64,000 bases of DNA from Cladocopium goreaui (taxonomy: Eukaryota > Sar > Dinophyceae > Suessiales > Symbiodiniaceae): the NCBI GenBank assembly GCA_947184155.2, contig CAMXCT020006583.1, forward strand, positions 289,501 to 353,500, in the 5' to 3' direction. Positions 7,814-43,622 of the stretch are shown here, piece by piece; position 1 is the stretch's first letter; every line of letters starts with the position of its first letter. A program made the translations under genes and the position numbers. Under the pieces are notes generated by a model. It searched no databases. It worked only from the letters and a program-made list of their open reading frames with translations, and was not told where the DNA came from.

Positions 7814-7819
7814 TTGCAG

Positions 7820-9415: not shown

Positions 9416-9589
9416 CCGGCGACAGGTTGTAACATTCGCTTCGGGGTCCTGGTATGAGGTTGTGGTATGAGGCAGGCCCTTGCGTAGCAACGTAGTGCGT
9501 ATAGAGTTGTTTCTTCTACCAAAACAAGTTCCTGTTGCTGCAGCTGCGATAATGTCTAACCTGATCTGTTCTTGTTGTTTCTGGCAAGC

Positions 9590-9707
9590 AGAACTGGCGA
9601 TGAGGGATGAATTTAACGTTGGGCTAAGGTGCTTAAACGTTCAAGATACCACAAAAGGTTTTGGTTCATTTTGACAGCAGAACGGTGGTCATGGAAGTCC
9701 AAAACAT

Positions 9708-9738
<31 letters not shown>

Positions 9739-9933
9739 TGGACGCAAGGGTTGCGATGCAGCTTTTGGCGTGAGCCTCAAATTTTTGTGGAAGAAGTGGG
9801 CCGTTTTTGGCAAGCAGAACTGGCGATGAGGGATGAATTTAACGTTGGGCTAAGGTGCTTAAACGTTCAAGATACCACAAAAGGTTTTGGTTCATTTTGA
9901 CAGCAGAACGGTGGTCATGGAAGTCCAAAACAT

Positions 9934-9964
<31 letters not shown>

Positions 9965-10230
9965 TGGACGCCAGGGTTGCGATGCAGCTTTTGGCGTGAG
10001 CCTCAAATTTTTGTGGAAGAAGTGGGCCGTTTTTGGCAAGCAGAACTGGCGATGAGGGATGAATTTAACGTTGGGCTAAGGTGCTTAAATGTTCCAGATG
10101 CCACAACAGGTTTTTCTTCATTTTGACAGCAGAACGGTGGTCATGGAAGTCCAATACATCTAAGGAGCGTGTAACAACTCACCTGCCGAATGGACGCCAG
10201 GGTTGCGATGCAGCTTTTGGCGTGCGCCTG
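9590..10230 (+). repeat. 226-bp tandem repeat, about three units (copy A)
   Basis: Units begin near 9590, 9816 and 10042 at GGCAAGCAGAACTGGCGATG and are almost identical. Each unit holds the same short open frame (EVGRFWQAELAMRDEFNVGL followed by RCLNVQDTTK), which reads like a once-coding exon that has been tandemly multiplied. In copy B the first unit keeps an extra SESASRAM segment missing here. No domain is recognised. Confidence 0.75.
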
Positions 10231-13437: not shown

Positions 13438-15359
13438 TCTTTTCAACCTTGGCTACATTGTAGTTTCTTCACTGGGGCGCCAGTTAGTGCGCACCGCTGG
13501 GGAACAGCAAAGCTTTGGTTTTCTTCACCTTAGCGCCGGTTAGTGCGCATGACAAAAGGTGTTAATGACTTTCAAGGTTGCATCAATGAACAGCAGCATC
13601 TGTGTTTGAAGGCTCGATGTTCAACCTGTTGTATGACATAGTGTTTAGATGAGTAACTGACGTTCTGCAATGCGACGATGTTTAAGCTGCTTTTTTGCGA
13701 GGAACATCCCGCCCCATGAAGCGACCAGGATTCACTATCACAACGGAGGCCTGGCTTACTTCCTCCAGAAGCATTTCTAGTTTTGAGTGTTGTAAAGTTT
13801 TAGCGGGTCGGTAACGCTTGTCTGCTGTGCACGGACTCACTACTCTGATGTGGTCATTTGCTTGTCCTCGTTTCCCTTTATTTACTTATTTCCTCCTCTT
13901 CTCACGTGGAACAAAACAAAACATCATTGGAGATTGTGCAAATGATGATTTTTTATTTCGGGCAGTTTCGACCTTCATCTTTTGAGGGCTGAAGATGCCC
14001 TTGTGTGCCGGTGTCAATCAGATGCGCGGGCCAGCAGTGCAACTACTTTTGCAGCCACTTGGCAGGGAGATACCATTGAAGAGTGGCCCATTTTCACCGA
14101 CATGTTGTCTTATTTGCCCGACGTTTGCATCAACGCTGAAATTGTGGTAGTAATGTGTGGGTGACATAACACAAAATGCTTCTTGTGACATGTCCATGTG
14201 CATTTTGACTGCGCAGGCTCGCACAAAATGCTTGCCTTGGAATACGGGTCCGGCATTTTCCCTGCAAATTTCCACACGAAATGCCTCTTATCACATGTCC
14301 ATGTGCATTTCGCCTGCGCGGGCTCGCGCAAAACGCTGGGGGACGTTTGCAGTTGACTTGTCAATAGCGGTTTATAGATAGGTTAAGCGTTGCGCTTGAC
14401 CATTTGGACTTTGGTTTGGAGACCCGGCAGGCTTTCTGAAACAGAGTGTGCCACCCTGTCTGATTTCCCGCTCTTTGTTGGGACCTAGCACGTGACGCTT
14501 AGATCGGCTTGAACACAGCGATCATCCATGAAGCTGGCGTGAAACTATCGCGTTTCCGTCTTGTATTTTAAATGTCAGATGTTCAGTTGGAGATGTTCCA
14601 ACCTTGTGAGCTGATTCACAAACATGAATGCACCAACTGTCAGTTTAAACAAACGTGCAACGATCAATGAATGTTGCTTGTCATTTAACATGTGTAATGC
14701 AAACGGGGTCACTCATTTCTTTTTCTCAAGAAATGTTTGGATTCAAGTGGGTTTTGTGTCACCGTGCCAGTGTGATCCAGCTTGGAACAATTTAAGATTT
14801 TCCCCATGCTTTGACAGGAAAAAGAAAACTGAATGTGCAAGTGTGTTTCAGCTTCAACTTGTCGACGGCAGTTTTTCACATGTCCGCATGTCACATGTTA
14901 TTTTTGGTTTTATTTTCACATGCGTTTTTTTCTGCGCGTAACTTGGAAGGATGACTTCTAGACTTGGCGTCTTAGCCGGTAACTTATATATATAATATAG
15001 GTTTGTCTGAAAATGAGTAATTTACGTCATTTTCAACATGACATGAAATGTCACCACCGGATGAGCGGAATTCGTTTTTTTGTTTCATGGCTTATTCACC
15101 ACGAGAACAATTTTTTTCAAACCAACCAACTCAAAACAAATCAGTTTGAGTGAGTTCGTTTGTTTTGTTTGTAAGAAGCAGTCACAACATGTGACATCTT
15201 TGTTTTGCTTCAAGGGAAGCAACCATGTGATTTCGGTTTTGCTGGTTGTTTACGACGTTTTTGACGGGGAGACGTTGTAGTAAGGTGTAACTCGTTGTTT
15301 CGCGGTAAGTAGACTGCACGCACGCGAGCATAAAGATCCTTATTTGGGATTCTACATAT
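13438..15359. other. Interior of element copy B without recognised gene
   Basis: Collinear with 5860-7813 of copy A and just as featureless: the duplicated CATGTCCATGTGCATTT block at about 14190-14310 and a short TA run near 14986-14998. Confidence 0.4.
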
Positions 15360-15365
15360 TTGCAG

Positions 15366-16965
15366 CCTGCTACCGCAAAAACGTCAAAAATATCCAGTTT
15401 GCAGCTGTCACATTTTCACCTGGGAACCTGCCACCGCAAAAAAAAATCTAAAAAGGTTCAGTTTTCAACTGCCGCACTCACCTGGGAGCCTGCCACCGCA
15501 AAAACGTCAATAATATCGAGTTTGCAGCTGTCACATTTTCACCTGGGAGCCTGCCACCGGAAAAAAAATAACAGGAAAAATCAACTTGCAGCTGTCGCAT
15601 TCTCACCTGGAAGTAAACCAACAAAAAATTCCCAGTTTCCTGAAATCTGGTAGATGAACTTTTGTCGAGGTGGGATAGAATAAGGTTTTTTTTAAATCAT
15701 ATCAATCTTCCTTTGTGTGAAAAAAAAGTTCTAATCTATCCCACCTTCTGTTTTGCAATCTGGATTTGACATTTTTTTGATGGCAGGCCCCCAGATGATA
15801 CACTTGCAAGCTGCACATTTGTTCATTTTTTGTGGTGGCAGACTCCCAGATGACTGTGGTAGTTGAAAGTTGAAAGCTAACCTTCTTTACTTTTTTTTTT
15901 GGCGGTGGCAGGCCCCCAGGCGAAAATGTGACAGCTGCAAACTGGATATTCTTGACGTTTAGGCGGTGGCAGGCTCCCAGATGAGAATGCGACACTTGCA
16001 AGCTGCACATTTGTTCCCTTTTTCGGGTGGCAGGCGCCCAGATGAGCGTGACAGTTGCAAACTGAAATTTCTTGACATTTTTTTTTTGCGGTGGCAGGCT
16101 CCCAAGTGAAAATGTGACAGCTGCAAGCTGGATATTCTTGATTTTTTTGCGGTGGCAGGCTCCCAGCTGAACCTTCTTGACCTTTCTTTTGCGGTGGCAG
16201 GCTCCCAAGCGAAAATGTGACAGCTGCAAGCTGGATATGCTTGACGTTTTTGCGGTGGCAGGCTCCCAGATGAGCGTGGCAGTTAAAAACTAAACCTTCT
16301 TTACCTTTTTTTGCGGTGGCAGGCTCCCAGGTGAAAATGTGACAGCTGCAAGCTGGATATTCTTGACGTTTTTGCGGTGGCAGGCTCCCAGATAAGTGTG
16401 GCGGTTGAAAGCTGAACCTTCTTTGCTCTTTTTTTTGGCGGTGGCAGGCTCCCAGGTGAAAATGTGACAGCTGCAAGCTGCCTATTCTTGACGTTTTTGC
16501 GGTGGCAGGCTCCCAGATGAGTGTGGCAGTTGAAAACTAAACCTTCTTTACTTTTTTTTTCGGTGGCAGGCTCCCAGGTGAAAATGTGACAGCTGCAAGC
16601 TGCCTATTCTTGACGGTTTTGCGGTGGCAGGCCCCTAGATGAGTGTGGCAGTTGAAAACAAAACCTTCTTTACCTTTTTTTTTGCGGTGGCAGGCTCCCA
16701 GGTGAAAATGTGACAGCTGCAAGCTGGATATTCTTGACGTTTTTGCGGTGGCAGGCTCCCAGATGAAAATGCGACACTTGCAAGCTACACCTTCTGTGGT
16801 TTTTTGCGGTGGCAGGTTCCCAGATGAGTGCGTCAGTTGAAAGCTGAACCTTCTTAACCCTTTTTTTTGCGGTGGCAGACTCCCAGGTGAAAATGTGCAT
16901 TTTTGCGGTGGCAGGCCCCCAGATGAGTGCAGCAGTTGAAAGCTGGACCTTTTTTTTTTCCCGGC
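15366..16965. repeat. Minisatellite with arms in opposite orientation (copy B)
   Basis: Collinear with 7820-9415: about four units at 15366-15607 and about twenty in reverse orientation at 15770-16965, built on the same GCGGTGGCAGGCTCCCAG core. Unit number looks the same in both copies, so they separated too recently for the array to change length. Confidence 0.85.
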
Positions 16966-17126
16966 GACAGGTTGTAACATTCGCTTCGGGGTCCTGGTAT
17001 GAGGTTGTGGTATGAGGCAGGCCCTTGCGTAGCAACGTAGTGCGTATAGAGTTGTTTCTTCTACCAAAACAAGTTCCTGTTGCTGCAGCTGCGATAATGT
17101 CTAACCTGATCTGTTCTTGTTGTTTC

Positions 17127-17252
17127 TGGCAAGCAGAACTGGCGATGAGGGATGAATTTAACGTTGGGCTAAGGTGCTTAAACGTTCAAGATACCACAAA
17201 AGGTTTTGGTTCATTTTGACAGCAGAACGGTGGTCATGGAAGTCCAAAACAT

Positions 17253-17283
<31 letters not shown>

Positions 17284-17496
17284 TGGACGCCAGGGTTGCG
17301 ATGCAGCTTTTGGCGTGAGCCTGAGCGAATCAGCCTCTCGTGCAATGTTTGTGGAAGAAGTGGGCCGTTTTTGGCAAGCAGAAATGGCGATGAGGGATGA
17401 ATTTAACGTTGGGCTAAGATGCTTAAACGTTCAAGATACCACAAAGGTTTTTGTTCATTTTGACAGCAGAACGGTGGTCATGGAAGTCCAAAACAT

Positions 17497-17527
<31 letters not shown>

Positions 17528-17790
17528 TGGACGCCAAAGTTGCGATGCAGCTTTTGGCGTGAGCCTCAAATTTTTGTGGAAGAAGTGGGCCGTTTTTGGC
17601 AAGCAGAACTGGCGATGAGGGATGGATTTAACGTTGGGCTAAGGTGCTTAAATGTTCCAGATGCCACAACAGGTTTTTCTTCATTTTGACAGCAGAACGG
17701 TGGTCATGGAAGTCCAATACATCTAAGGAGCGTGTAACAACTCACCTGCCGAATGGACGCCAGGGTTGCGATGCAGCTTTTGGCGTGCGC
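17127..17790 (+). repeat. 226-bp tandem repeat, about three units (copy B)
   Basis: Units begin near 17127, 17372 and 17597. The frame at 17174-17500 is open across one junction and reads SESASRAMFVEEVGRFWQAE and then DTTKVFVHFDSRTVVMEVQN, a longer version of the exon-like peptide of copy A. This supports a coding origin for the unit. Confidence 0.7.
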
Positions 17791-18637
17791 CTGAGCGAAC
17801 CAGTTTATACATCTGAGTTTGCATGTCTCTTCATGATTGCGTAGTACGACGCGCGTTTGTGGAAGGCCCAGTACTGTTTGTTGGCAGGTGCAGCTGCTTA
17901 GTTGAAAGAAAAGCCGCAGGGGATCCCCTTGAACCCCTGCAGTCAATGTTGACATGCCGCGGACTTTTCAGAATAAATGTTTGATGTCTATCGAGGAGAC
18001 CTCCCAGAATGAAAGCCTTTCATGTCTATTGATGTCTGTTCGATCGGTATTCAAACATTGACAAATTTCAACATTGACCGCAGGGGTCGCAGGGGATTGG
18101 GTGTGGTCACATTTTTCTAGGGGTCTCTAGCAAACGAAATGAGAACGCAGAAATAGATAAGATGGGACGGAATTAATTACATTAGCAGAAAAAGCGACTA
18201 GAAGAATGTAGACGTAGCTGACACAGCATGCTGTGGTGAATTGTGGCCCCTGATACCGTCAGTGCGCACGATGCTTCAGTACAGATCTTACGTCGATTTC
18301 GTGCAGAGCACAGCTGCCCACACCACAAGATTAAAAGGCGTGCTGTGTGCCGTCATGCTTTTGGGTTCTCTGGCCCACCTTGCTTTTGTCACTTTAACGC
18401 TGACTGCAGGGGTTGCAGGGGACTTGGACTGGCCCAGATGTTATCATTGTACTGAGGAGCTGGAATGAAACATTTCGCCTGCAGCCATCCTGTGAAGGCT
18501 CCACCGACCTTTGCATGCTCTTCGAGAATATCCTTCACTATTTCCGATTGGCTACATTGTCTTTGCCGTGATGGGGCCATTTTTGGAATCGAAATATAGG
18601 CCCTATTTAGGGGTTGATGGTTTGTTCTGTGATAGTA

Positions 18638-26554: not shown

Positions 26555-27248
26555 GAAAGTGGACCCGCTTGAAATCAAAGTGGTCCCCCCTGAAGGTCCA
26601 GTTTTGGTCCCTTTGGCCCCTTCATTATGGCAAATCTGCTAAAGCGTTTATTTCAAGTTGAAGCTGATTTGACCAGCAACGGCTTCGGCTGGAATCTTGA
26701 ACTGTAGAAAAAACACTTCAGGGCAAGCTTCGAGGCAGGCTTCAAGGCAGGCCTCGAGGGCCTCAGGCATGAAAATTGAAGCAGTCGTCCTCGTGGTGAA
26801 GTTGGTGGGGGAACTGTGCTGCCTCGCTTGAATTTTAGGCCGCAGCTGGCGCAAAGAGACGGCCTCCAGGCAAGCCTCGAGGCCTCAAGGTTCTGGAAAT
26901 TGCCGACGCGTGGCCTCGGCCAGGCTTCGATTCGCTTTAGACACGTAAGCAGATTCTCAGAAATGTTGTTCGACGGCCGTTTATGGTTTGTCTTTTCCTT
27001 TTTCTGCGGTGCTCTTCAGCGGCGCGAATCGGAAGAAACGCCACGTTGGCAAAAGTGCGGCCGCTCGGCACAATCTTTGTCGCTAAGTGCGACGTCTGCC
27101 GCACAAAGTGACGGTCGATGTCGTCTAGTGGGACGGGTGTGTGATCAAGTTTTGTGTAGCAAGCTATGTCTGAGCGCTGTTTGAGGAAGTTGTGGACAAG
27201 TTGTGGTAACTTCGTGTTGTGTGAAAGTGAGTTGTGTGTGAGGAAGGT
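26555..27248. other. No recognised gene; short palindromic and purine/pyrimidine repeats
   Basis: Contains tandem AGGCAGGCTTCAAGGCAGGCC-like words near 26728-26760 and the second arm (26903-26923) of the 21-bp inverted repeat. At 27190-27248 a GT-rich run (GAAAGTGAGTTGTGTGTGAGG) leads into element 1. Confidence 0.4.
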
Positions 27249-28107
27249 GTGTGTGTGTGAATCCTGCTATCACACGCAGGCACAAACTCATATACATATG
27301 TACTTTAACCCTTGAAGTGAAAGCAGAGCAGGGGGCCACGGCTCCATTCATCAGTCCGTGGCCAACGAAGCTACTGATGTTTGGAGAGGATATGCAGTCT
27401 GATCAACTGCACGTACCTGCAAATCGAACTGTTGATTTCTGTTCCTCTATGACGCTGTTTGCTTTAAGAAAGAATTTCACATTTCGTACTGTCTCCTCTA
27501 TTACTTGCACTAGCAGTTTTTGATTTTCTGAGCTCGTTCGGGAGCCTTCATGTATTGCGCTGACATGGCATCGAGCTTGTTCGGGAGCCTTCATGTATTG
27601 CGCTGGCATGGCACTGAGCTCATTTGGGAACCTTCATGTGTTGCGCTGGCATGGCACCGAGCTGATTGAGGATCTTTCATGTTGCATTGGCGTGGCACCG
27701 AGCTATAGTTTGGACATTTTCATATAGTGTACTTGCATAGCATTGAGCTGATTCGGGAGCCTTCATGTGTTACATCGGCATGGCACTGAGCCATACTTTA
27801 ACAAAATTTTTATGTATTGTACTTGCATGACATCGAGCTGATTCGGGAGTCTTCATGTGTTGCATCGGCATGGCATTGTGCTATAATGTTTAGTTTTTTT
27901 TTTCAACCAATTGTGCTAGCATAGTACCGAGCTAGTTTGGAAGCTCTCCTGTGTTACAGCAGTTTGGAAGCTCTCCTGTGTTACAGCGGTTTGGTAGAGT
28001 AGGGTGCAATTTCTATCAGCAGTGTCGGCCAGGTTTCTAAGGAATTCAAGGCGAGAACGAGATCATTCACATGACGGTCCATTTCAAACCCAATTCAGCA
28101 GTGTGTA
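27249..28107 (+). repeat. Left terminal repeat of element 1
   Basis: Begins GTGTGTGTGAATCCTGC with an overlapping pairing pattern (GTGTGA with TCACAC, CCTGC with GCAGG). Then come the pseudoknot fold at 27328-27420, the peptide-neutral stretch to 27526, and a minisatellite at about 27527-27950 of ~43-bp units (GAGCTGATTCGGGAGCC and TTCATGTGTTGC are typical words). It ends CAGCAGTGTGTA. Almost identical to the right repeat except for two minisatellite units. Confidence 0.85.
27328..27420 (+). ncRNA. Pseudoknot fold, copy 1 (left repeat of element 1)
   Basis: Outer stem GCAGG (27328-27332) with CCTGC (27416-27420). Stem a GGCCACGG (27334-27341) with CCGTGGCC (27356-27363). Loop b CTCCATTCATCAGT (27342-27355) with b' ACTGATGTTTGGAG (27373-27386), two mismatches, giving an a-b-a'-b' pseudoknot. 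Linker AACGAAG. Then GATAT and a hairpin GCAGT/ACTGC around the loop CTGATCA. Function unknown; a self-cleaving or dimerising RNA is possible. Confidence 0.7.
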
Positions 28108-28350
28108 CTGGGTGCACGGCAGATTATGCCGACACCGTCGCAGGGATTCGTCCCAGCTCAAGGATTTTCTCGCGACACATTAGCGTGTCGTGTAGGATGA
28201 CTGTCATGTAGATGACAGTAGAAGGAGCCCAAATGGGCGAAGAACAGCCTAGCGGCACTCAAAAGGACGCCTAGCGGTGAAGGACGCCTAGAGGTGAAGG
28301 ACGCCTAGCGGTGAAGGAGCCTTAAGGCGAAGACTAACTGATACATGGAT
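28108..28350 (+). other. Structured leader of element 1
   Basis: Immediately after the left repeat comes CTGGGTGCACGGC, then hairpins GGG-ATTCGT-CCC (28143-28154), CGACAC/GTGTCG (28173-28190) and ACTGTCAT/ATGACAGT with a 4-nt loop (28200-28219). Four 17-bp units of GACGCCTAGCGGTGAAG type follow at about 28265-28331. The position matches the primer-binding or packaging region of a retroelement. TGGGTGCACGGC could pair with a tRNA 3' end (complement ends in CCA), but that is speculative. Confidence 0.5.
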
Positions 28351-28746
28351 GTTGCGGCACTCAGTCCACCATGCAAAGACTTGGTTGTATGTGTGTGCAT
28401 GTGTGTGTCAGTGTGTGTTCCTTTGGTCTAAATAACCAAACCAGTGCTTCTCTTTGCATTATATCATTCCGTGGGAAGTTCGGAATTTGAATTCTGCATG
28501 CTTGTGTGAGGCATCAAGCTTGGGTATTCGATAAATCGTGCATGTATGACTGTATGACCTTCATGATAATGCATGTGCAGAACATGATGGGCTGTTCCGA
28601 GAAATTTCTGAATTTTGTTATGTGTACCTTGATGCGCGCAAAAATGTTTTGTTTCACTTGATAATTGCAATTTGTTACTATGTGTTAATTTGTTATTATG
28701 TGTTACTGGATGCTGGCAAACCACTGTTTCTATAGCTGCTATAGCC

Positions 28747-30377
28747 ATGCCGTCAAAAAGTGCTGGGGGTCCGCCTCCTCAATATGATGGTCAACGACAA
28801 CGCGGTCCTTTCACGATGTCTTGGTTACCACCATTGCCTCCACCACCTGCGCAGGTTCAACCCCAGGTTCATGTGAGTCCCATAGTCAATTCACCACCTA
28901 GACCAATAGCGAGTTTGAGTGTGCGGGGACAGCTGGGTGAATACCGGCTTGAAGTCTCGGACGCACAGGGTCTTCAACAACTTACTCAGATGATGGATCG
29001 TCTAAGTCAAGTGGAAGCACAACTCGCTTTGACCCAGATAGCTCAAACGGCATATCAACCTATTTTCCCCTCTGTGATGCCCGTTCCCAACCTCATGATG
29101 CCCGAAATGTTAGCCCCTTCCACAGTGGCAGAACCTAACAAAGTTGGAAGTGCTTCTCAATCGGTCGCAAGAGGGAGTGGCCATGATGCAGTCTTAACCT
29201 CAGAAGGTGTTGGAACCGCAGCAGCCTCAGATTTGAACTCGTCTTCGCCTCAAAGCCAGCCTGCCAAGTATAAACCTCGTTTACATGGTGCAAGAGTTCA
29301 GACACATGATTTCCATGGAAAGATCAAATACACTGAATACACAACGATTCAAAGACTGACGGACATGACGGTGCATGATTTTCGCTGGAAAGACAGCACA
29401 GAACGAGTCTTGGAAGTTGGACACCCATTGTGTCGACAGTGTTTTGTTACACCAATACTTGCTGGCTTCTTCTGTGATGCCCTTCGGCCTCTGACCCGCG
29501 GAAATTTTCAGCAGTGCGTATGGGAAGAAGTATATTATTTACTCAATGAACGGTTACATGCAGACTTGTTTCAAGTTTCTGAGAGACTTGCGAATGCTTT
29601 GGAACTTGGTCGGGTAGTGGAAACGTCACAGAAGTACGCCCCAAATCCAGAATATTATACTCGCAAGCGGCGGTTTATATTGGAACCGGAGATTACCATC
29701 CAGGCTACGCCTTTTGGGGATTTCTTGGCAGATCAAATTCGTTCAACCTTTCCTGGTGACTTTCATACTCTCAAGGAGGCATGTTTTGTGCTTAGCAAAG
29801 CGATGAATTCTTTTCCAACTTTGATTGAGATGTTTCAGAAAGCAGAATTTATTCAGCTTTCACATTCAGCGGACTCTACGACCACAAAGTTCAAAGGGGC
29901 TGTGATTCTCCATTTGGACATTCCTACCTTCAAGACAGTTGGTGATGCTCCTCAATTTCCCTCTGTTTTTACCTTTGCACACAATAGTAGTATTTTGACT
30001 GCCTGTACCATTCTACGGGACGGGTATATTCGACCTTCAGCTGCTGCCGAACATCAAGCTCAATGGTTGCCAGTTCCTGGTTTCTATTCCAGGGGGAGCA
30101 TGGTAACAGTGACCGTGAAGAAGATGTCAAACGATCACTGAAAGAAACATTCCGAAAGGCAATGGCATATTCACATTTCTCAGACGCAACTCGCCCCACC
30201 AGTATTTTTGGAGTTGCATATTCGCGACAGCACCAGCACTGCACCATACATGCCGGAGGCGTTTGTGCGGATCATGCCGCAAGTCTCTTTTGGGATGCTT
30301 GTCATAATGTTTCTGATCGGCGCTGGATTTTCAGGTCCCAGTTAGCGCAAGTCAAGGGCATAGCCGTGTATATTTAG
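28747..30377 (+). pseudogene. Passenger protein of element 1 (Pro-rich, coiled coil, unknown C-terminal domain), one frameshift
   Basis: From ATG at 28747 the frame runs 464 codons to 30141; a shift near 30100 lets it continue in the next frame to 30377, about 540 residues in all. The order is a Pro-rich start (SWLPPLPPPPAQVQPQ), a short Leu/Gln-rich coiled coil (LQQLTQMMDRLSQVEAQLAL), a Ser/Ala-rich linker, then a globular region from about residue 200. The conserved-looking core FAHNSSILTACTILRDGYIR followed by PVPGFYSRG recalls the H-x-T/S and G-x-x-x-S spacing of ADP-ribosyltransferase-like folds, but this is a weak resemblance. The only gene of element 1; it may be a gag-like packaging protein or a captured host gene. 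The single frameshift may mean recent decay or a sequencing error. Confidence 0.55.
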
Positions 30378-31346
30378 ATATGTTTAGATTAATTTGTGAG
30401 CGCAGCGCCAAAATAATATATTCACCATGTGCCCCTGCATTTCTGTTGCGATTTTGTGAGCGGAAGATGTGGCTGTCATATCAACAGTACAGAATGATAG
30501 AGCCGTTCGCGGTGATTATGTTATCAGTGAGTGTGAAACAGGAATGGCAAATTGAATCAATTTGATGTTTGTTTGGCAATTAACTTCTTGAAGTGATGTT
30601 CACAGTTTGATCCCCTCGCAAAATCCGGGTATTTACTTTTAGCTTTGTCGTTTTGATTTCTCATTTCAAGCTACCAAAAGTGGCGAGTATAGTGTTATAC
30701 CAATAGGTGAGATGTTGTGACAAATTGGACACACTTTTCACTCACATGCACTTTTGTTGTCAAGCCCTTAGAGTGACAGTGTGGGTAGCGATCTCAGTCC
30801 GCAGTTCGTCTTAGCCTTAGTGCAGTGTTACCTCTGGGCTTTTGGCTCGGATGAGATTGATCGTTCAGCATTCACAACCTGCACACGTCTGTTGGGCGCA
30901 ACTTCAAGATATTTTTGCATTGCATTTACATGTTGATCCAGAATATTTCCGATGTATCGATGAGGCGCTGCAACTTTGCAGAATACGTTTTCCACACAGA
31001 CACATGACCAAAAACCAGCTGCTTCAGTACGCCTAGATTGGTAACGAGGATGAAAACAGGGCTGACATTGCGCATGTACAAGATGTCGGATTGATACTCT
31101 TTCCTTCCTCCGTTGACATTGGTGCTTCTTCTTCATGATCATAAATTTCCCTGACAAGAGCATGTACATGACAGACTGCTCCTGAAGCATCAGAATTGCA
31201 CAGTTGAAATTGCACCAAACATGTTGTGACCATTTGGTTTCAGCTTAAGCTTGGCACTTCAAATAAGTAAAGACATGATTCCGCTTAGAACTTCAAAACT
31301 CCAAAAGTTGCTTGTTTCGTCCTACTTAATGGCCCTATCGGGCCCA
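30378..31346. other. 3' interior of element 1 without recognised gene
   Basis: No domain in any frame; the longest (120 codons, minus strand) is unconvincing. Just before the right repeat lies GGCCCTATCGGGCCC, an imperfect palindrome (31331-31345). A purine-rich tract, expected for an LTR retrotransposon, is not evident. Confidence 0.4.
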
Positions 31347-32115
31347 GTGTGTGTGTGAATCCTGCTATCACACGCAGGCACAAACTCATATACATATGTA
31401 CTTTAACCCTTGAAGTGAAAGCAGAGCAGGGGGCCACGGCTCCATTCATCAGTCCGTGGCCAACGAAGCTACTGATGTTTGGAGAGGGTATGCAGTCTGA
31501 TCAACTGCACGTACCTGCAAATCGAACTGTTGATTTCTGTTCCTCTATGACGCTGTTTGCTTTAAGAAAGAATTTCACATTTCGTACTGTCTCCTCTATT
31601 ACTTGCACTAGCAGTTTTTGATTTTCTGAGCTCGTTCGGGAGCCTTCATGTATTGCGCTGACATGGCATCGAGCTTGTTCGGGAGCCTTCATGTATTGCG
31701 CTGGCATGGCACTGAGCTCATTTGGGAACCTTCATGTGTTGCGCTGGCATGGCACCGAGCTGATTGAGGATCTTTCATGTTGCATTGGCGTGGCACCGAG
31801 CTATAGTTTGGACATTTTCATATAGTGTACTTGCATAGCATTGAGCTGATTCGGGAGTCTTCATGTGTTGCATCGGCATGGCATTGTGCTATAATGTTAA
31901 CCTTTTTTTTTCAACCAATTGTGCTAGCATAGTACCGAGCTAGTTTGGAAGCTCTCCTGTGTTACAGCAGTTTGGAAGCTCTCCTGTGTTACAGCGGTTT
32001 GGTAGAGTAGGGTGCAATTTCTATCAGCAGTGTCGGCCAGGTTTCTAAGGAATTCAAGGCGAGAACGAGATCATTCACATGACGGTCCATTTCAAACCCA
32101 ATTCAGCAGTGTGTA
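31347..32115 (+). repeat. Right terminal repeat of element 1
   Basis: Collinear with the left repeat; the minisatellite is two units shorter. Ends CAGCAGTGTGTA, which overlaps the start of the next terminal-repeat element. Confidence 0.85.
31426..31518 (+). ncRNA. Pseudoknot fold, copy 2 (right repeat of element 1)
   Basis: Same sequence as copy 1, shifted by 4098 bases: outer GCAGG/CCTGC, stem GGCCACGG/CCGTGGCC, pseudoknot pairing across the AACGAAG linker, hairpin with loop CTGATCA. Confidence 0.7.
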
Positions 32116-32358
32116 ACATCTGAATAGATGTAAAACTTCTTCTCTCTCTTTTTCTTCCTTTGTCCTCTCCCTTTCTAATTCTAAATTAAATTTAATGCAG
32201 GGGGCCACCGGGGTCCCGGGGGGGTCGGTGGCCACCGAAGACACCCCGCCGGGACCCGTGTAAACGTACCTGCATTAATCTAACGATCTAGGCTGGTTTG
32301 CATGTTTCAGGATTCAGTTCCTGCCGGATCATATAATGATCCATTCTTGTCTAGTGTG
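32109..32358 (+). repeat. Terminal repeat U1 of element 2
   Basis: Parts in order: GTGTGTA; hairpin ACATCT-GAAT-AGATGT; a long pyrimidine-rich tract ending TTTAATGCAG; the pseudoknot; two more hairpins, AGGA/TCCT and GGATCAT-ATA-ATGATCC; then CCATTCTTGTCTAGTGTG. Confidence 0.8.
32197..32273 (+). ncRNA. Pseudoknot fold, copy 3 (U1)
   Basis: Outer GCAGG/CCTGC. Stem a GGCCACCG (32203-32210) with CGGTGGCC (32226-32233). b GGGTCCCGGGGGGGT (32211-32225) with b' ACCCCGCCGGGACCC (32243-32257), one mismatch. Linker ACCGAAGAC. The palindromic-loop hairpin is missing here (only GTGTAAACGTA lies between b' and the outer stem). Confidence 0.7.
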
Positions 32359-33096
32359 ATTTCCATGGTGGCTCCGACATGGTGCCATGGAGCCATTTGA
32401 GGCAACCCTCTTCAGGGTGAGTGTCGACAGTCTTGAATTCTGAATTCACACATTTTAACTTGGTAATTCATCTAAGTAAATCGCAACAGTCAGCCTTTCG
32501 GTTGTGCACCTTTTTGCAAAGTCCCGCTTTTCCGGCTGTCCTTTATGAACCCAGTGGATTGCATCTCTGTTGAGTGAAGCCACTTCGAACTACCAGAAAC
32601 CTCCTTTTTCGCAGCAGCCTTTACCGTCACATTACAAGAGACAGAACGCAGGCAGGTACATGATCTTTAGGTGCGGTTTTCTTTCTTTTGATGGTCTCTG
32701 GTGAGGTGAAACATGTTGTGCACCTAATTCGTTGGAATTTGATAGCCGTTTGATGCCATTGGGGCACGACTTGACCACGGGCCTGTTGTGGCACAATTGC
32801 ACGAACAGTAGGTCTAGGAGCTGAGTCCTGTTTGTTAACTACTTGTTTTGGTTTTGTTTGTCATCAACTAGTCCCCCATTTGGTCCCTAATTCTCCCCGC
32901 GTGCCTCTCCGTAATGTGTCGTGGGGTTTAGGTGTGTGCGCTGTTTTTGTCAGGTCCGTTTCGCCGTGTAGGTTGGTTCTGGAGGTCCGTCTGTTCCCCT
33001 CCCCCCCCTGCGCTGTTTTTGGCCGTTTGCCCTTCGTGTGTCCGCTTTTTTCTTCCTCTTGCCTTTCAGGGTTGACCCGGCTCCGGCCGGGTGTGT
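32359..33096. other. Interior of element 2, non-coding
   Basis: A hairpin near its start pairs TGGCTCC with GGAGCCA (about 32369-32395). The rest has T/C-rich segments and no convincing frame. Segments are shared in order with 37674-38466 of element 4. Confidence 0.55.
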
Positions 33097-33348
33097 GTGT
33101 GTAACATCTGAATAGATGTAAAACTTCTTCTCTCTCTTTTTCTTCCTTTGTCCTCTCCCTTTTTAATTCTAAATTAAATTTAATGCAGGGGGCCACCGGG
33201 GTCCCGGGGGGGTCGGTGGCCACCGAAGACACCCCCCCGGGACCCGTGTAAACGTACCTGCATTAATCTAACGATCTAGGCTGGTTTGCATGTTTCAGGA
33301 TTCAGTTCCTGCCGGATCATATAATGATCCATTCTTGTCTAGTGTGTG
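33097..33348 (+). repeat. Terminal repeat U2 of element 2
   Basis: Same parts as U1 with a few substitutions. Its 5' side continues a GTGTGTGTGT tract and its 3' GTGTG is shared with the start of U3. Confidence 0.8.
33185..33261 (+). ncRNA. Pseudoknot fold, copy 4 (U2)
   Basis: As in U1, but b' reads ACCCCCCCGGGACCC, an exact 15-of-15 complement of b GGGTCCCGGGGGGGT. Confidence 0.7.
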
Positions 33349-33600
33349 TAACATCTAAACAGATGTAAAACTTCTCTCTTTTTCTTCCTTCCGTCCTCTC
33401 CCTTTCTAAATAACGCAGGGGGCACCTGGAGCATGGATAGGTCAGGTGCCAACGAAGACACCTATCCAATGCTTGTGATATCACGGCTGATCACCGTGAC
33501 GTACCTGCCAATAATTTCATTGTTTCGTATCTAATCTGCATGTTTCAGGATTCAGTTCCTGCCGGATCATATAATGATCCATTCTTGTCTAGTGTGTGTG
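33344..33600 (+). repeat. Solo terminal repeat U3
   Basis: A single repeat of the U type directly after U2, sharing GTGTGTA. Hairpin ACATCT-AAAC-AGATGT keeps its stem while the loop differs. The 3' hairpins and the GTCTAGTGTG end are the same as in U1 and U2; the central 90 bases differ in sequence but not in fold. Confidence 0.75.
33415..33508 (+). ncRNA. Pseudoknot fold, copy 5 (U3), covarying
   Basis: Outer GCAGG/CCTGC. Stem a GGCACCTG (33421-33428) with CAGGTGCC (33443-33450). b AGCATGGATAGGT (33430-33442) with b' ACCTATCCAATGCT (33460-33473), one bulged A. Linker AACGAAGAC. GATAT, then hairpin CACGG/CCGTG around CTGATCA. All three stems differ in sequence from copies 1-4 yet still pair. 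Confidence 0.7.
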
Positions 33601-34215
33601 TGTGTCAGTGTGTGGGCAAGTCTTGTGTGAGTTAGTTTGTATGAGTGAGTTGTGTGAGAGTTCGTTCTGTGTGAGGAAGTTGTGCGTAAGAAAGTTGTGT
33701 GTCAGAAAGTTGTGTGTGAGGAAGTTGTGTGTGCGTAACTGGCGCGTAGGAAAGTGTAGTCGTCCTCGTGACTCAGTTGGTATGGCGTGACTCTTGTGTC
33801 GCTGACAGATTGCCAGTGGTGGTTCGATTCCCCGCTGGTCCGCGAGTAAGACTCGACTTCAAAAGGACCGTGCCTCAGAGCATAAACGGTCAGACTCGGA
33901 CCAAAAAAATGTGTGTGGGAAAGGTGTGTGTGTGGAAGTTGTGTGTGAGTAAGTTGTGTGTGAGAGTAAGCTGTGTGTGAGGAAGTTGTGGAAGAGGAAG
34001 TCTTGGGGAGTAAATTGTATGGGGAAAGTTGTTTGTGGAAGTTATGTGAGTAAGTTGTGTGAGGGTAAGTTCTGTGTGAGGAAGTTGTGTGAGAGTAAGT
34101 TGTGTGTGAGTAAGTGAGTAAGTTGTAAGAGAAAGTTGTGTGAGAGTAAGTTGTGTGTGAGGAAGTTGTGTGAGAGTAAGTTGTGTGCGTGAGTAAATTG
34201 TGTGTGAGAGCAGGT
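33587..34215 (+). repeat. GT-rich tandem tract of AAGTTGTGTGTGAGT type
   Basis: Irregular units of about 13-16 bp (GAGGAAGTTGTGTGTGAGTA) fill this stretch, interrupted at about 33740-33905 by a tRNA-like segment. The same tract type occurs at 37228-37316 and 38836-38996, always next to terminal-repeat elements. Confidence 0.8.
33762..33845 (+). other. tRNA-like sequence (degenerate)
   Basis: GGTTCGATTCC (33831-33841) matches the RNA polymerase III B box and TGACTCAGTTGG (33769-33780) resembles an A box at tRNA-like spacing. The acceptor and T stems do not pair well, so this is a tRNA-derived remnant or SINE head rather than a working tRNA gene. Confidence 0.4.
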
Positions 34216-35590
34216 TGAGAGGAGGACGAGGAGGACGAGGGAGGAGGAGCAAGCCCCGGAGTGCCCAACCAAAAACAAGAACCCCACACACAGATGTGGA
34301 GAAAAAGAGTGAGACGGATCCGTGTTCTGCCATACCACAAGCTAACTGCACTGAGCAGGGCACGATCCCAATGGTCATTCGTAGTGTCTCATGAATCTCT
34401 GGAGAGGAAGACAGGTCACAGTACCGCAACGTGGAAACATGGTACAGGCCAATGCCTCCTTTGGTGCCATGTATCTCCGCCATGGAACACAAAATTGCGA
34501 ACCTCCCCCAGTACTCCATGGTAGCTAATCACAGACCCTTCACAGACACTCTCAGTCACCTAGAGATCGATGGTGCAACATTTGACCGGATCCGACGAGG
34601 TAGCAGGCAGATACAGTGCGCGAACGAGCCATGTGTGCAATCTTTGTTGCTGCGCGGGCGCACTGGGAAACACGACAGCAGGACCAAGCCCTGGGCGTAA
34701 CCCCGACCAGGACCGGATCACGACCAGAAGCATGCAGCGGAAACTGAAAAAGATGGGAGAGCGCGAATTCAGGGGGTGAAAAGCACAGAAAGGCCCGCAA
34801 ACAACACAATACAATCAATAGAATCTCGTAGACTGAAAAAGACGAAACAAATCAGGGAACGGAAGAAAGGAGCAGGAACCGTCTGTGGTCGAGCGACGCG
34901 CTGCCCCAACAAAGCTTAAGAACAACCGCACTACACAGGATAGAAGTGCAGAAACCTGGGGAAGCTATACGAGAACTGAATCTGCAAGATACTGGGCCCG
35001 GTGCAAATGCTTATCATCCTCCAGGAACTTGTACCATGTGAGGTCCAGAGCAAATGTAGGGGAGTCTCGTAGCTAGTACTTGGTCCCGCCATTTTTCTGG
35101 TGTCAGACCAGCATCACTATATAGCTTTAATCACTTCCAGGAATATTCTGGTCGGATCAGATGGGCAGAAGCCCATGATGTTCTAGTGCACCAGGCATTG
35201 ATAGAAACGTTCTATAACTGCAGGGAAGCATTGCTTCCTTTCCCATTTACTGTCAACACCCAAGTCAAAGCCCGCCGCGTTCTTAGCTAAGAAACGCACT
35301 GCACTTAGACTCTCTGCCACTGTTCTTGACTGTCTTTGTAAAGTAACAACGGCCCTTTGTACGCTTTGGATAATGACATCAGTGATAGCACTAAGAAGAA
35401 TCGGTGCGATTTTGCTGGCAAGGGACGCGGTCCGATTACCACAGTAATCACTGCTATTGAATCTCATAGCGGATTGGTAAGTTTAACCGGCACACTCGGG
35501 TGGGCGGCAGGGATTGACCGGTAGTTCCTTAGACGACCCAGCAGTTCGGTCAGGATGGAGCGAAACCAGTACGATGCATACATCAAATAT
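34216..35590. other. No recognised gene
   Basis: Starts with a short GAGGACGAG repeat (34218-34250). Frames of up to about 95 codons show no domain on either strand. Confidence 0.4.
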
Positions 35591-37230
35591 AGGAGGGACA
35601 TGAATCTTCACTTTGCGTGGCAGGTGTGGCACTTCTAGACCTTGCCTTTCATTTTGCGTCGCAGGTGTCGCACTTCCTGAAACGATTTGCAAGCGCCATG
35701 GAGCAAGGGCTGGAAGACACTGTGGCTACAGGCGAAACTTGAAGGTTGATCTCTCCAAGTGCCACGCCTGCCATGCAAAGAGAAGGTCGATGTTGCGAAG
35801 TGCTACGCCTGCCACGCCAACTGGAAGTCCATGTCTTGAAGTGTCACGCCTGCCACGCAAAGTGAAGATCCACGCGTCTGAGATGCAAAGTGAAGGTTGA
35901 TCTCAAAGGTCGATGTAGCCAAGTGCCACCCCTGCCACGAAAAATAAAGGTCCATGTCTTAAAGTGTCACGCCTGCCATGCAAAGTGGAGGTAGATGTTG
36001 CCAAGTGCGGTTTCCAGCGCAGTAGTCAGTGTCAATGGCAGCTTCAGAAGACAAATTAAAACATGTTCAACAGACATCTTCCATACCTGTACACATTTGC
36101 AAAAGACAATTATTGAATGTCATGTGAGCTGTGTTAAGTGTTTTTTCTTTTCAGCGACCAGGAGATCTCTTTTTCTTCGTCGCCTAGCGCCGTATCAAAA
36201 TTGACTCACTTCCACAGGACGTGGCATGTGGCATAGGGCTGGTTCTGGTGGCGCGCTTGGGTCCCGTTTGGCGCCGTTGCAGGCGTGGCACTTGGCAACA
36301 TCTGCTAAACACTTTGCGTAGCAGGCGTAGCAGACATGCCTTGGCCACATCGACCTTCACTTTGCATGCAGGTGGCGGCATTCGACCTTTCGTCCTTTAC
36401 TTCGCACTTGGCAACATCAATCTTCACTTTGTATGGCAGGTGTAGCAGTTGGAGACGACTGTTCAGGCGTGCCACTTAGCAACAAAAACCTTCACTCTAC
36501 AGGCGTGGCGCTTCCAGACATAGACCTCCACTTTGCGTGGCAGGCGTGGCACGTGTCGACATTTAACATGGACCCCCAATTTGTAAAGACATCGACCTTT
36601 ACTTTGCGTCAAGTGTGGACATGGGCTCCACTTTGCATGCAGGTGTAGCACTTATGGCACTGAGTTGGCTCTGGTAGCGCGCTTCGGCTCCGTTTTGCCG
36701 CTTGTCGTCGCGGCTGTTTGTGTAGGAGGCGTCGCGCTTGGGGACCACTTTGCGTGGCAGGTGTGGCACTTACAGCGCTAGACTGGCCCCGGTGGCGCGC
36801 TGGGGTCCGGTTTGGCGCCGTGGCTGTTTCTGTGGCAGGCGTGGCATCAAGCTTCACTTTGCGTGGCAGGCTTGGCGATATCGACCTCCACTTTGCGTGT
36901 TTGTGTGGAGAATCACTTTGGGTGGTGGCGTGGCACTTAGAGACATTGACCTACTTTGCGTGGCAGGTGTAGCGCTTGGCGACATCCATCTCCACTTTGC
37001 GTGGCAGGCTTGGCGACATCGACCTCCACACTTTGCCTGGACTCCCGCGAAACGATTTGCACGCGTCATGGAGCAAACGCCGGAAGACACGGAGTTACTG
37101 AAGATGCCGTCTGAGTATGGTAGGTTTCTGTGTGTGAGCATGCGATTGATGCGCGGTGCGAAAATCTCTCAAATCTCTCGTCGCCTTGCGCCACGCAAAG
37201 TGGAGGTCGATGTCGCCAAGTGCCACGCCT
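35590..37230. repeat. Interspersed minisatellite in alternating orientation
   Basis: A unit of about 41-47 bp with TTTGCGTGGCAGGCGTGGCA and TTGGCGACATCGACCTCCAC recurs on the + strand at 35,605-35,690 and 36,280-37,045. It appears in reverse (TGCCACGCCTGCCACGCAAA) at 35,740-36,000 and 37,185-37,230. Spacers between units vary. The orientation changes allow foldback; frames through it are repeat artefacts. Confidence 0.75.
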
Positions 37231-37316
37231 GCCTGTGCGGACAAGTCGTGTGTGAGTAAGTTGTGTGCAAGCAAGTTGTGTGTGAGTAAGTTGTGTGTGG
37301 ACAAGTTGTGTGTGTG
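37228..37316 (+). repeat. GT-rich tract before element 4
   Basis: Repeats of AAGTTGTGTGTGAGT and GACAAGTTGTGTG, the same type as at 33587-34215. Confidence 0.75.
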
Positions 37317-37332
37317 AGAACCATCTAGGGGA

Positions 37333-37424
37333 ACGGGGTCTGGGCACTCTGTGACTGACCCAGTTCAACCAAGCCAGGTCACAGAGTGGGATATCTGGAT
37401 TGGCCATCCAGACGATTTTCTGCA
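37333..37424 (+). ncRNA. Pseudoknot fold, copy 6 (left repeat of element 4)
   Basis: Stem a CTGGG (37341-37345) with CCCAG (37360-37364). b CACTCTGTGAC (37346-37356) with b' GTCACAGAGTG (37379-37389), an exact 11-bp pairing. GATAT, then hairpin CTGGA/TCCAG around the loop TTGGCCA, then CTGC. The 5' partner of CTGC and the CGAAG linker are altered in this copy. Confidence 0.65.
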
Positions 37425-37673
37425 ATTTCCGATGTCAATTTCAAGTTCTGTAAGGTTTTCGCAATCTGTCAAGGTGGGAACGATTTGTCTTGGTTGATAG
37501 GGAAGGATCAGCTTCCAAATTTTTCATTCTGCACTGGCTATGGCGATGGTAGCTTTTTGATACTTGGTCGGGTCTCTTCGTCGACCCATTCCTGTCAGGT
37601 GTATTTGGAGTGTTTGTGCACGTAAGATGCATTCCACAACAAATTCGCAATGACCATTCTGAGCAAGTGTGTG

Positions 37674-38466
37674 ACTCATGCTGGATTCGTCAAGGTGGCA
37701 TGAACCCTTCGGGGAATACCTTTCTAGGTAGGAAGTTCGAACCTCCGACCTCATCTCTGATTTTACAGTTTTCAACTTAGTAATTCGTCTAAGTAAAGTG
37801 AAACAGTCGGCCATTTGTCATCTTTTCACCCGTCGATGGGTTCTGTGTTGAAACAACTTGCCGCTGTACTGGGCCTCTCCTTCTTCTCTTGTGACGTTGT
37901 GACGATGTGCATAGCTGGAAGCCGCGACAACATCTTCATTTTCTGTGCTGCTCGAGAGACAGACCCATGTCATTTTGGTCATGTGCACTTAATTCATTTC
38001 CGATTACTGACAGCCGTAATAGGCTTGAATTGACCCCCGAGGGCCCTGAGCCTTGTCACGAATTCTTGCATTGGTTTGTGGATGCATCAATTTTCATCAA
38101 CTAGTTCCCCATTGGTCCCCTATCTCATGCGTGCTCCCTCTCTAGGTCAGGTTTGGGTCCTTCGCATGCCAAGGTAGGTTTGGCTCTCGCCTTGTAGGTT
38201 GTGTCAAGCGCTTCTGTCCGCCCCCCCCCTCCTCTGGTCGGTGTTTGGCCCGTCGTCCGTCCGCTTTTTCTTTTCCCTTACCTTTTCAGGGTTTGCCCGC
38301 TCTGGGCTAGATGTGTTGGTGTTGGTGTTTTCCCTTTTTCCTCTCCTCTTTTGCGTTCCCCGTCTCGTGTCCCGGTTAAGTAGCTGTCATCTCATTTCCA
38401 TCGTGATCTCGTTTCCATTTCCCTTTCATTTTCACCTTCATCTCATTTGTCGGAGCCTTAAAAAGG
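37674..38466. other. Interior of element 4, non-coding
   Basis: Near its 5' end GTTCGAACC (37736-37744) resembles a polymerase III B box but lacks a convincing tRNA fold. Shares GTAATTCGTCTAAGTAAAG, ATCAACTAGTTCCCCAT and CTTTTCAGGGTTTGCCC with element 2 in the same order. Confidence 0.5.
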
Positions 38467-38502
38467 TGAACCGTCTGAAGAGATGTAAAACTCTTAAGTT
38501 TC

Positions 38503-38595
38503 GCAGGGGAACTGGGCACTCTTTGACTGACCCAGGTCAACGAAGTTAGGTCACAGAGTGGGATATCTGGATTGGCCATCCAGACAGTTTTCTGC
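38503..38595 (+). ncRNA. Pseudoknot fold, copy 7 (right repeat of element 4)
   Basis: GCAG (38503-38506) with CTGC (38592-38595). Stem CTGGG (38512-38516) with CCCAG (38531-38535). b CACTCTTTGACT with b' GGTCACAGAGTG, 10 of 12 paired. Linker GTCAACGAAGTTA retains the CAACGAAG core. GATAT, hairpin CTGGA/TCCAG, loop TTGGCCA. Confidence 0.7.
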
Positions 38596-38835
38596 AATTT
38601 CCGATGTCAATTTCAAGTTCTGTAAAGTTTTCGCAATCTGTCAAGGTGGGAACGATTTGTCTTGGTTGATAGGGAAGGATCAGCTTCCAAATTTTTCATT
38701 CTGCACTGGCTATGGCGATGATATCTTTTTGATACTTGGTCGGGTCGCTTCGCCGACCCATTCCTGTCAGGTGTAATTGGAGTGTTTGTGCACGCAAGAT
38801 GCATTCCACAACAAAATTCGCAATGACCATTCTGA

Positions 38836-38996
38836 GCAAGTGTGTGTGTGTGTAAGTTGTGTGTGAGTAAGTTGTGTGTTGCCAAGTTGTGTGTTGACAA
38901 GTCGTGAGTGAGTAAGTTGTGTGTGGACAAATCGTGTGTGAGTAAGTTGTGTGTGGACAAATCGTGTGTGAGTAAGTTGTGTGTGTGTGTGTGAGC
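38836..38996 (+). repeat. GT-rich tandem tract after element 4
   Basis: AAGTTGTGTGTGAGTA and GACAAATCGTGTGTGAGT units; the right end of element 4 (GTGTGTGTG) merges into it. Confidence 0.8.
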
Positions 38997-39519
38997 AAAA
39001 CCAGCACCAAGATGAATCCAGCAATTTGGGTACGAAGAAGTTAGGTGTTGAAACATTGAAACGCGTCGAAATTTGCAGACTAGAAGGTTCATAAGATTCT
39101 CATGACAGCGTTTCAAGCAGCAGCGTGGCACTATTGCAAGGGTGATCTTCCTCATCTTCATTCCTGTCAGGTGATCTCCCACAAATTTCAGTTTTCTGGC
39201 AGCAGGCATTGGTGCAGTGATGATGGTCCAATAAGTCCCCGCGTCTATCGTTCCTAGTGGAAGGCGTGGTGAAGGTTCAAACGGTGGAACCAATTCGACT
39301 AGAACCAGAAACAGATCACGTATCCGAACTGATCGAGCTACGTGGATAGCTGAGATGAAGGACAGCTTGGCCGCAACCTTCGTGGTAACAGCAGTGAATT
39401 TCAGAAGGTCTCAGGTCTACACCATGTACAACAACCTACGTCTTGCATGGTTGCTGTGGTGAATGAGGAGTATGACATGATAGACCTCTTCATCACGTAC
39501 CTGGAACTTGTCCCTTGCC
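38997..39519. other. No recognised feature
   Basis: Unique-looking sequence with no convincing frame between the GT tract and the 110-bp tandem repeat. Confidence 0.4.
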
Positions 39520-43100: not shown

Positions 43101-43622
43101 CAGAGGGCCATTCCAGACCAAAGAGCAGATAGCCTTTCTTCGCTTTGATCAATCTGGGGAATTGCTCTCAGTCCATTGGACTGGGCTTGGGCAATATCAT
43201 CAAAGGAAATTTAGTTAGAACACTTCCGAGTTACAGACGATGGTCATGGTTAGCATTCACACCATCATGCCAACCACATCATCATGTGAATCACGCATCA
43301 TATCCCATCATCAAGTAGTTGCGGGTGAAAACATTCCCAGGCGCGAAACCATGTGTTTTTTCGGGGAATGTGACTCTTGAGGTCGCCAAAGTAAGGTCGC
43401 TGTTTCCGCGGTTGTGGGCCTCGAGCTGGGAAAGTTGTCGACAAAAAGCGCACAGGACTGTAGCGAGAGCTCGATTTGTATTTCAAAATTTTGTATGTTC
43501 GGAGCACCTTTGGAAGACGAGGTTGGCAAAATTTGCGCGAGACTGCAGCCAGAGCTCGATTTTGCACTTCAAATCCAAAAAAACAGCAGGGGTCGGAGCA
43601 CTGTTGGAAAACGAAGTAGAAA

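Follow-up and report, generated by a model that had tools for sequence, protein, structure and literature searches.

Ribozymes placed in paired repeats are a known pattern of retrozymes and Penelope elements (PMC7761336; PMC11167929). In Penelope elements, palindromes lie at the start of the pseudo-long terminal repeats (pseudo-LTRs) and microhomology is found at their junctions (PMC3846280), and one such element has a hammerhead that cleaves only with protein added and is dispensable for insertion in vitro (PMC11167929). Among ribozyme folds, pistol and the pseudoknot hammerhead share, by our reading of their descriptions, a layout that opens with a hairpin, its loop paired, followed by the first outer strand; a pseudoknot strand then lies between two core strands, and after these come a second hairpin, the cleavage strand, and the second outer strand (PMC11300833; PMC4604425; PMC6154101). 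Hammerheads are also known in naturally occurring, non-circularly permuted forms (PMC10085705). Here, we analyzed a 64,000-nucleotide (nt) stretch of contig CAMXCT020006583.1 (positions 289,501 to 353,500; henceforth the window), in which the terminal repeats of three elements (elements 1, 2, and 4) and one solo terminal repeat (U3) carry a common fold with a covarying pseudoknot. By a modest degree, we lean toward viewing this motif as a cis-acting, self-cleaving structured RNA of retrozyme/Penelope-type terminal-repeat retroelements.

A covarying pseudoknot in seven repeat copies

A sequence-only reading of the window had claimed seven copies of one fold in terminal repeats, and all seven could be located, each on the + strand and together lying between about 27328 and 38595. 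Elements 1, 2, and 4 each contribute two of these, one per direct repeat, and the solo repeat holds the seventh. Five repeats start at (GT)n, and in these the motif begins 73-88 nt inside, on one strand throughout. From 5' to 3', the order is GCAGG, a single G, the first arm of stem a (8 bp), strand b, arm a', the core AACGAAG or ACCGAAG, strand b', usually G[A/G]TA together with hairpin c, usually CGTA, and lastly CCTGC. Strand b is 14-15 nt long and abuts a and a' without a spacer. The core is kept in six copies and reads AACCAAG in c4a, G[A/G]TA precedes hairpin c in all five copies that have it, and the CGTA strand is found in 5/7 copies. Moreover, the outer 3' strand CCTGC becomes TCTGC in family 4, and its 5' counterpart is degenerate in c4a.

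Copy c1a (27328-27420) has GCAGG at 27328-27332 and CCTGC at 27416-27420 as its outer strands, enclosing stem a (27334-27341/27356-27363), strands b and b' (27342-27355/27373-27386), AACGAAG (27364-27370), hairpin c (27393-27398/27406-27411), and CGTA (27412-27415), and its sister c1b (31426-31518) shows GGTAT in place of GATAT. Copy c2a (32197-32273), with the ACCGAAG core and without hairpin c, forms stem a from 32203-32210/32226-32233 and b/b' from 32211-32225/32243-32257 with one G-G mismatch, and all 15 of 15 b pairs are formed in c2b (33185-33261; a, 33191-33198/33214-33221; b, 33199-33213/33231-33245). In the solo repeat, c3 (33415-33508) consists of stem a (33421-33428/33443-33450), b/b' with one bulged A and one G-T (33429-33442/33460-33474), hairpin c (33481-33486/33494-33499), and CGTA (33500-33503). 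Family 4 includes c4a (about 37327-37423), which has a degenerate 5' edge and a CAACCAAG core (a, 37337-37344/37359-37366; b, 37345-37358/37375-37388; c, 37394-37399/37407-37412), and c4b (38503-38595), where stem a has one mismatch (a, 38509-38516/38531-38538; b, 38517-38530/38547-38560; c, 38566-38571/38579-38584). Stem a of this family, previously given as 5 bp, is indeed present, though that length was too short, as it reaches 8 bp with mismatches.

For counting pairs, we used one row per family (c1, c2b, c3, and c4b). Of the copies left aside, c2a, with its G-G mismatch in b, and c4a, whose stem a has one G-T and one T-T, would pair less well. MAFFT had put one gap wrongly in stem a of family c2, and this alignment (A3) was therefore not used for the counts. 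Two-sided compensatory changes were found at 21/33 pairs, these Watson-Crick changes falling at 5/8 pairs in stem a, 12/14 in b, 4/6 in hairpin c (three families), and 0/5 in the outer stem. Paired cells amount to 31/32 for a, 52/56 for b, 18/18 for c, and 20/20 for the outer stem. When the 3' arms were re-dealt among families, the true assignment outscored every other, with 31 against 29 for the runner-up in a, 52 against 42 in b, and 18 against 13 in c. Each b is, as claimed, complementary to its own b', the two forming duplexes of -17.3 kcal/mol in c1, -33.2 and -37.6 kcal/mol in c2, -18.9 kcal/mol in c3, and -13.7 to -19.9 kcal/mol in family 4, as against -0.7 to -8.0 kcal/mol with the arms of other families. 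Stem a of family 4 is imperfect, each copy preferring the arm of the other copy over its own (-8.4 vs -7.4 and -12.2 vs -8.3), and the 5' arm of c4a pairs equally well with the c1 arm (-7.5) and its own. Hairpin c, which the earlier reading had described along with GATAT as usual, is so, and it also covaries in the families that have it (arms TGCAGT/ACTGCA, TCACGG/CCGTGA, and TCTGGA/TCCAGA), with family c2 being without it.

A three-family alignment (A4; rows c1a, c3, and c4b), covering the outer stem, a, and c with b excluded, is 98.2 percent paired with 9/19 pairs covarying, and 500 shuffles all fell short of it on each of five measures, percentage paired, covarying pairs, and covariation score among them, a result that relatedness of the rows may inflate. 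Sliding the partners made pairing fall from 98% to 30-39%, a drop inflated by the structure having been derived from the same rows. A covariance model trained on these three rows, in which b pairs were not modelled, recovered the left-out family c2 (c2b, E 5.2e-6; c2a, E 5.9e-6; the calibration being rough) along with c1b (E 2.1e-21) and c4a (E 1.7e-12), both sisters of training rows, and gave a single further match in the window at E 2.7. Wobbles lean to the + strand, although weakly, with 4 G-T against 1 A-C plus 8 other mismatches across six partly related rows. The covarying pseudoknot fold proposed for these terminal-repeat elements thus withstands analysis, given the compensatory changes and the finding of family c2 by a model built without it, and we regard its base pairing as real, selected, and confirmed.

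As chance controls, we scored 77, 75, and 65 sites with the same conserved letters from IMG/VR and GTDB loci, having removed duplicates (by 100-nt context) within each pattern and dropped sites with less than 60 nt upstream; one site may fall under two patterns. The best pseudoknot score among these was 11, in comparison with 16, 16, 20, 23, and 17 for the five intact window copies, the controls being prokaryotic and viral DNA of other composition. Against excluding chance, c4b scored 9 in the core-anchored control scan and 0 in another such scan, and c4a was unscorable in the former and 0 in the latter. A bare pseudoknot scan of eight Markov shuffles returned 22 matches with a top score of 19, which exceeds c1, c3, and c4 (13-17) and is below only c2 (20 and 23), and is by itself not decisive; what gives strength is that all four families repeat a single register and core.

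Searches for further copies gave none, the collections possibly omitting the window's own genome. The pattern GCAGGGG...[A/C]CGAAG...CGTACCTGC matched 3 stretches in IMG/VR and 57 in GTDB contigs, and 0/60 passed the pseudoknot score (best 11). Two looser IMG/VR patterns matched 98 and 89 stretches, none passing among the 80 matches listed for each, and two narrower ones had no IMG/VR match. Such stretches, scoring no higher than 11, were rejected as copies, taken as chance, and reused as controls. A GCAGGGG...AACGAAG pair at 43586-43616, with its parts 24 nt apart, is a weak possible pseudoknot whose score of 11 equals the best chance site, and was not counted.

Proposed self-cleavage and competing explanations

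As we picture it, the candidate ribozyme would cleave once per repeat, and because both repeats of each of the three elements hold one copy, the two cuts would yield a unit-length RNA of 4098, 988, or 1172 nt, these being the spacings of the motif copies in elements 1, 2, and 4, respectively. Such an RNA could be circularized, and a reverse transcriptase acting in trans would copy it into (GT)n sites. Going by the pistol and pseudoknot-hammerhead layout, the active site would be made up, around the pseudoknot, of the strands AACGAAG, GATA, and CGTA, and the last of these would hold the scissile bond, immediately 5' of CCTGC. We counted in favor of a ribozyme that the unpaired core is kept while the helix letters are scrambled across families.

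Several points weigh against self-cleavage in this form. The outer stem is nearly invariant and shows no covariation, the folding energies of four copies are modestly low (z of -1.3, -2.3, -1.8, and -2.3), and the sample is four families, all from one 11-kb stretch. Neither GATA nor hairpin c is found in family c2, and family 4 is without CGTA. In the 5' repeat of element 4, the upstream part is missing and the shared sequence begins at the motif 5' edge, a single case that points away from CGTA. Moreover, stem a and b/b' may be alternative pairings, as on geometric grounds full b/b' and full stem a are hard to combine because the 14-15 nt loop is paired almost throughout, and nested folding retains b/b' in 5/7 copies and stem a in c1a and partly in c4a. 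Lastly, ten candidate motifs picked partly for conserved positions and complex structure gave no in vitro cleavage in one study (PMC10085705).

The latter two points speak for a structured RNA that is not catalytic, which might serve as a binding or packaging signal for reverse transcriptase or a partner protein, or as a switch with stem a and b/b' as its two states. This explanation is doubtful although far from negligible, and finds a parallel in a Penelope protein whose binding site is thought to lie within the initial 172 nt of the frame encoding it, adjoining the pseudo-LTR (PMC11167929). However, the conserved unpaired core round the pseudoknot, the copy in both repeats, and the retrozyme-like unit are traits of cleaving ribozymes.

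It is unlikely that the motif belongs to a known ribozyme class, as a hammerhead or pistol that has diverged or been non-circularly permuted, despite a layout that is equal save for one moved strand (PMC11300833) and, by our own comparison, the likeness of ACGAAGA to the GANGA part of CUGANGA and of GATA to GAAA. Here, in agreement with what was said from the sequence, the hammerhead core letters CTGANGA and GAAA are absent from 7/7 copies. Furthermore, Rfam returned no hammerhead, pistol, hepatitis delta virus (HDV), twister, or hatchet match, either at gathering across the window or with E up to 10 over 27200-39000 and for c3 and c1a alone. The whole-window search found only ribosomal RNA (rRNA) fragments, elsewhere than the motif, and the more permissive ones only microRNA, small nucleolar RNA, long non-coding RNA, and cis-element matches far under gathering scores. 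A check for an already described structured RNA thus gave no relevant match, and a comparison of layouts led us to discard HDV, twister, and permuted hammerheads, the first two as the earlier reading had also done.

More improbable still is self-cleavage at the motif 5' edge, by which the element RNA would begin with the motif, similar to the HDV-like ribozyme of R2, whose RNA self-cleaves exactly at the element junction (PMC3774820). The shared sequence of the element 4 5' repeat does begin at 37327, 2 nt inside the motif edge, a single case, though five other repeats begin at (GT)n, 73-88 nt upstream. HDV ribozymes have a P3 helix in their layout, and no equivalent helix is present between b and a' here, in line with the lack of an HDV match in the Rfam searches.

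Selection on single-stranded DNA, as a recombinase or nuclease site, fits a covarying structure equally well as RNA does, and is very improbable given that the way the repeats are built, their junctions at (GT)n, and the 5' truncation agree with reverse transcription, that Pfam found no transposase or recombinase in the element 1 frame (the sole element frame searched) or in the related proteins P0001 and P0003, and that the wobble bias leans weakly to RNA. The likelihoods expressed for these alternatives overlap, since two are versions of the self-cleaving reading.

Carrier elements and the rest of the window

All carrier repeats are on the + strand. The 5' terminal repeat of element 1 (27249-28107) begins at a (GT)n tract and aligns locally to the 3' repeat (31347-32115), which is joined to element 2 via GTGTGTA. 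Within the element 1 repeats, we noticed an internal array of about 43-bp units (27528-27893 and 31626-31890), with unit numbers that seem to differ. Element 2 is bounded by a direct repeat (32109-32358 and 33097-33346) with 99% identity between its copies, and the solo repeat (about 33342-33599) shares 72% identity with these. For element 4, the 5' repeat (37327-37673) has its shared sequence beginning at AGGGG after (GT)n and a short stretch, and the 3' repeat (38505-38846) is given as aligned to it, with a 27-nt match to the element 2 repeats upstream of the latter (about 38466-38492). Repeat lengths are 0.77-0.86 kb, 250 bp, and about 345 bp in elements 1, 2, and 4, respectively. The solo repeat and those of elements 1 and 2 open with GTGTGT. 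Element 1, element 2, and the solo repeat are joined head to tail via GTGTG, and every repeat ends GT-rich with GTGTG, GTGTGTG, or GTGTGTA rather than CA. There are no TG...CA ends, and a tRNA primer site was sought by eye only. Elements 2 and 4 have interior blocks in common, and element 1 shares the motif with them despite no blastn match to either at E up to 0.01. No stop-to-stop frame of more than 132 aa lies wholly inside elements 2 or 4, and a 265-aa minus-strand frame runs from the element 4 end into an adjoining minisatellite. A degenerate 15-bp minisatellite (unit near TGTGTGTGAGTAAGT) adjoins the motif-bearing elements at 33620-34233, 37201-37358, and 38823-39004.

Element 1 has a 464-aa reading frame (28747-30141, +), in which Pfam gave no match at E up to 1 and thus no reverse transcriptase, GIY-YIG, transposase, or recombinase. 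Its relatives P0001 and P0003 were without a match above cut-off, and the PDB had no match for the family. The same protein family continues in another frame (29991-30377), and a related 543-aa protein exists elsewhere. Among ENA/JGI-labelled records only, scoring the 7994 best-sharing candidates gave at least 5 relatives at E up to 0.001, and scoring the best-sharing 7993 gave at least 14 with E up to 0.01. The family probably has many members, since its top cluster represents 198 sequences. In IMG/VR, two pattern matches gave no confirmed locus, and the predicted fold, with a mean predicted local distance difference test score of 29.1, is of no use.

Elsewhere in the window, a stretch is duplicated about 7.5 kb apart (7571-10229 and 15117-17821) with the same minisatellites, and fragments matching eukaryotic large-subunit rRNA are in or beside 226-bp repeats; by these, the host looks eukaryotic. 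A frame at 12003-12926 weakly matches the DDE superfamily endonuclease PF03184, just below cut-off, and is possibly a DNA transposon remnant, and a tandem array (61366-64000; 80-bp unit, 33 copies, 93% matches) runs off the window end.

Comparison with known ribozymes and retroelements

The topology had been described as closest to pistol, a view that our comparison supports and refines in that the pseudoknot hammerhead has an equal layout. In both, as in the present motif, a loop pairs downstream, core strands flank the pseudoknot strand, and a further hairpin is followed by a short strand into the outer stem (PMC11300833). In contrast, the outer-stem 5' strand (GCAGG) has here moved upstream of the hairpin that carries the pseudoknot, about 11-15 pairs form between b and b' rather than 6, and the core letters differ. 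Such non-circular permutation is so far reported for hammerheads, of which type-SGC, type-CSG, and type-GCS offer a pseudoknotted precedent (PMC10085705), although these are built on the CUGAnGA core that is absent here. We tentatively suggest that the motif could represent an undescribed self-cleaving class, having a pistol/hammerhead-like pseudoknot core with its outer strand relocated and serving hammerhead-less, microsatellite-targeting Penelope-type protist elements and their non-autonomous riders. No protist element with such a motif is described among the titles found in the literature, with most subscription papers outside the search. Penelope elements with an N-terminal endonuclease are said, from the 2021 work of Craig et al., to favor microsatellites, and they are not known to carry canonical hammerheads. 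If self-cleavage is true, a further ribozyme, found in protist retroelement terminal repeats, would add a fold, offer a handle on how such repeats yield unit-length, possibly circular RNA, and make it directly testable whether Penelope-type elements lacking hammerheads use another ribozyme. Even without cleavage, four families keeping one pseudoknot with most paired letters replaced argue strongly that structure in a mobile element is under selection.

As for the carriers, plant LTR and animal non-LTR retrozymes are likewise small and mostly non-coding, with one structured RNA per repeat and a unit length equal to the copy spacing. Here, the structured motif is in both repeats of three elements. 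Retrozymes differ in having a hammerhead, and the plant ones a primer binding site and 4-bp target duplications (PMC7761336), with another fold and (GT)n edges being found here. The elements had been called retrozyme-like, and while a motif in each repeat is in keeping with this, Penelope pseudo-LTRs fit better than plant LTR retrozymes in view of the (GT)n boundaries, the 5'-truncated repeat, and the lack of TG...CA ends. In fact, the direct repeats, partial tandems, and 5' truncation seen here, along with unrelated genes between repeats, are also described for Penelope pseudo-LTR elements (PMC3846280; PMC11167929). Differently from Penelope-like elements, the motif is not a hammerhead, and no reverse transcriptase or GIY-YIG is in the one element frame searched (element 1); nor was a telomerase-like reverse transcriptase found in that frame, P0001, or P0003. 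An autonomous partner element may be present elsewhere, and, judged by their repeats, the elements of this locus resemble Penelope-type pseudo-LTR elements or retrozymes.

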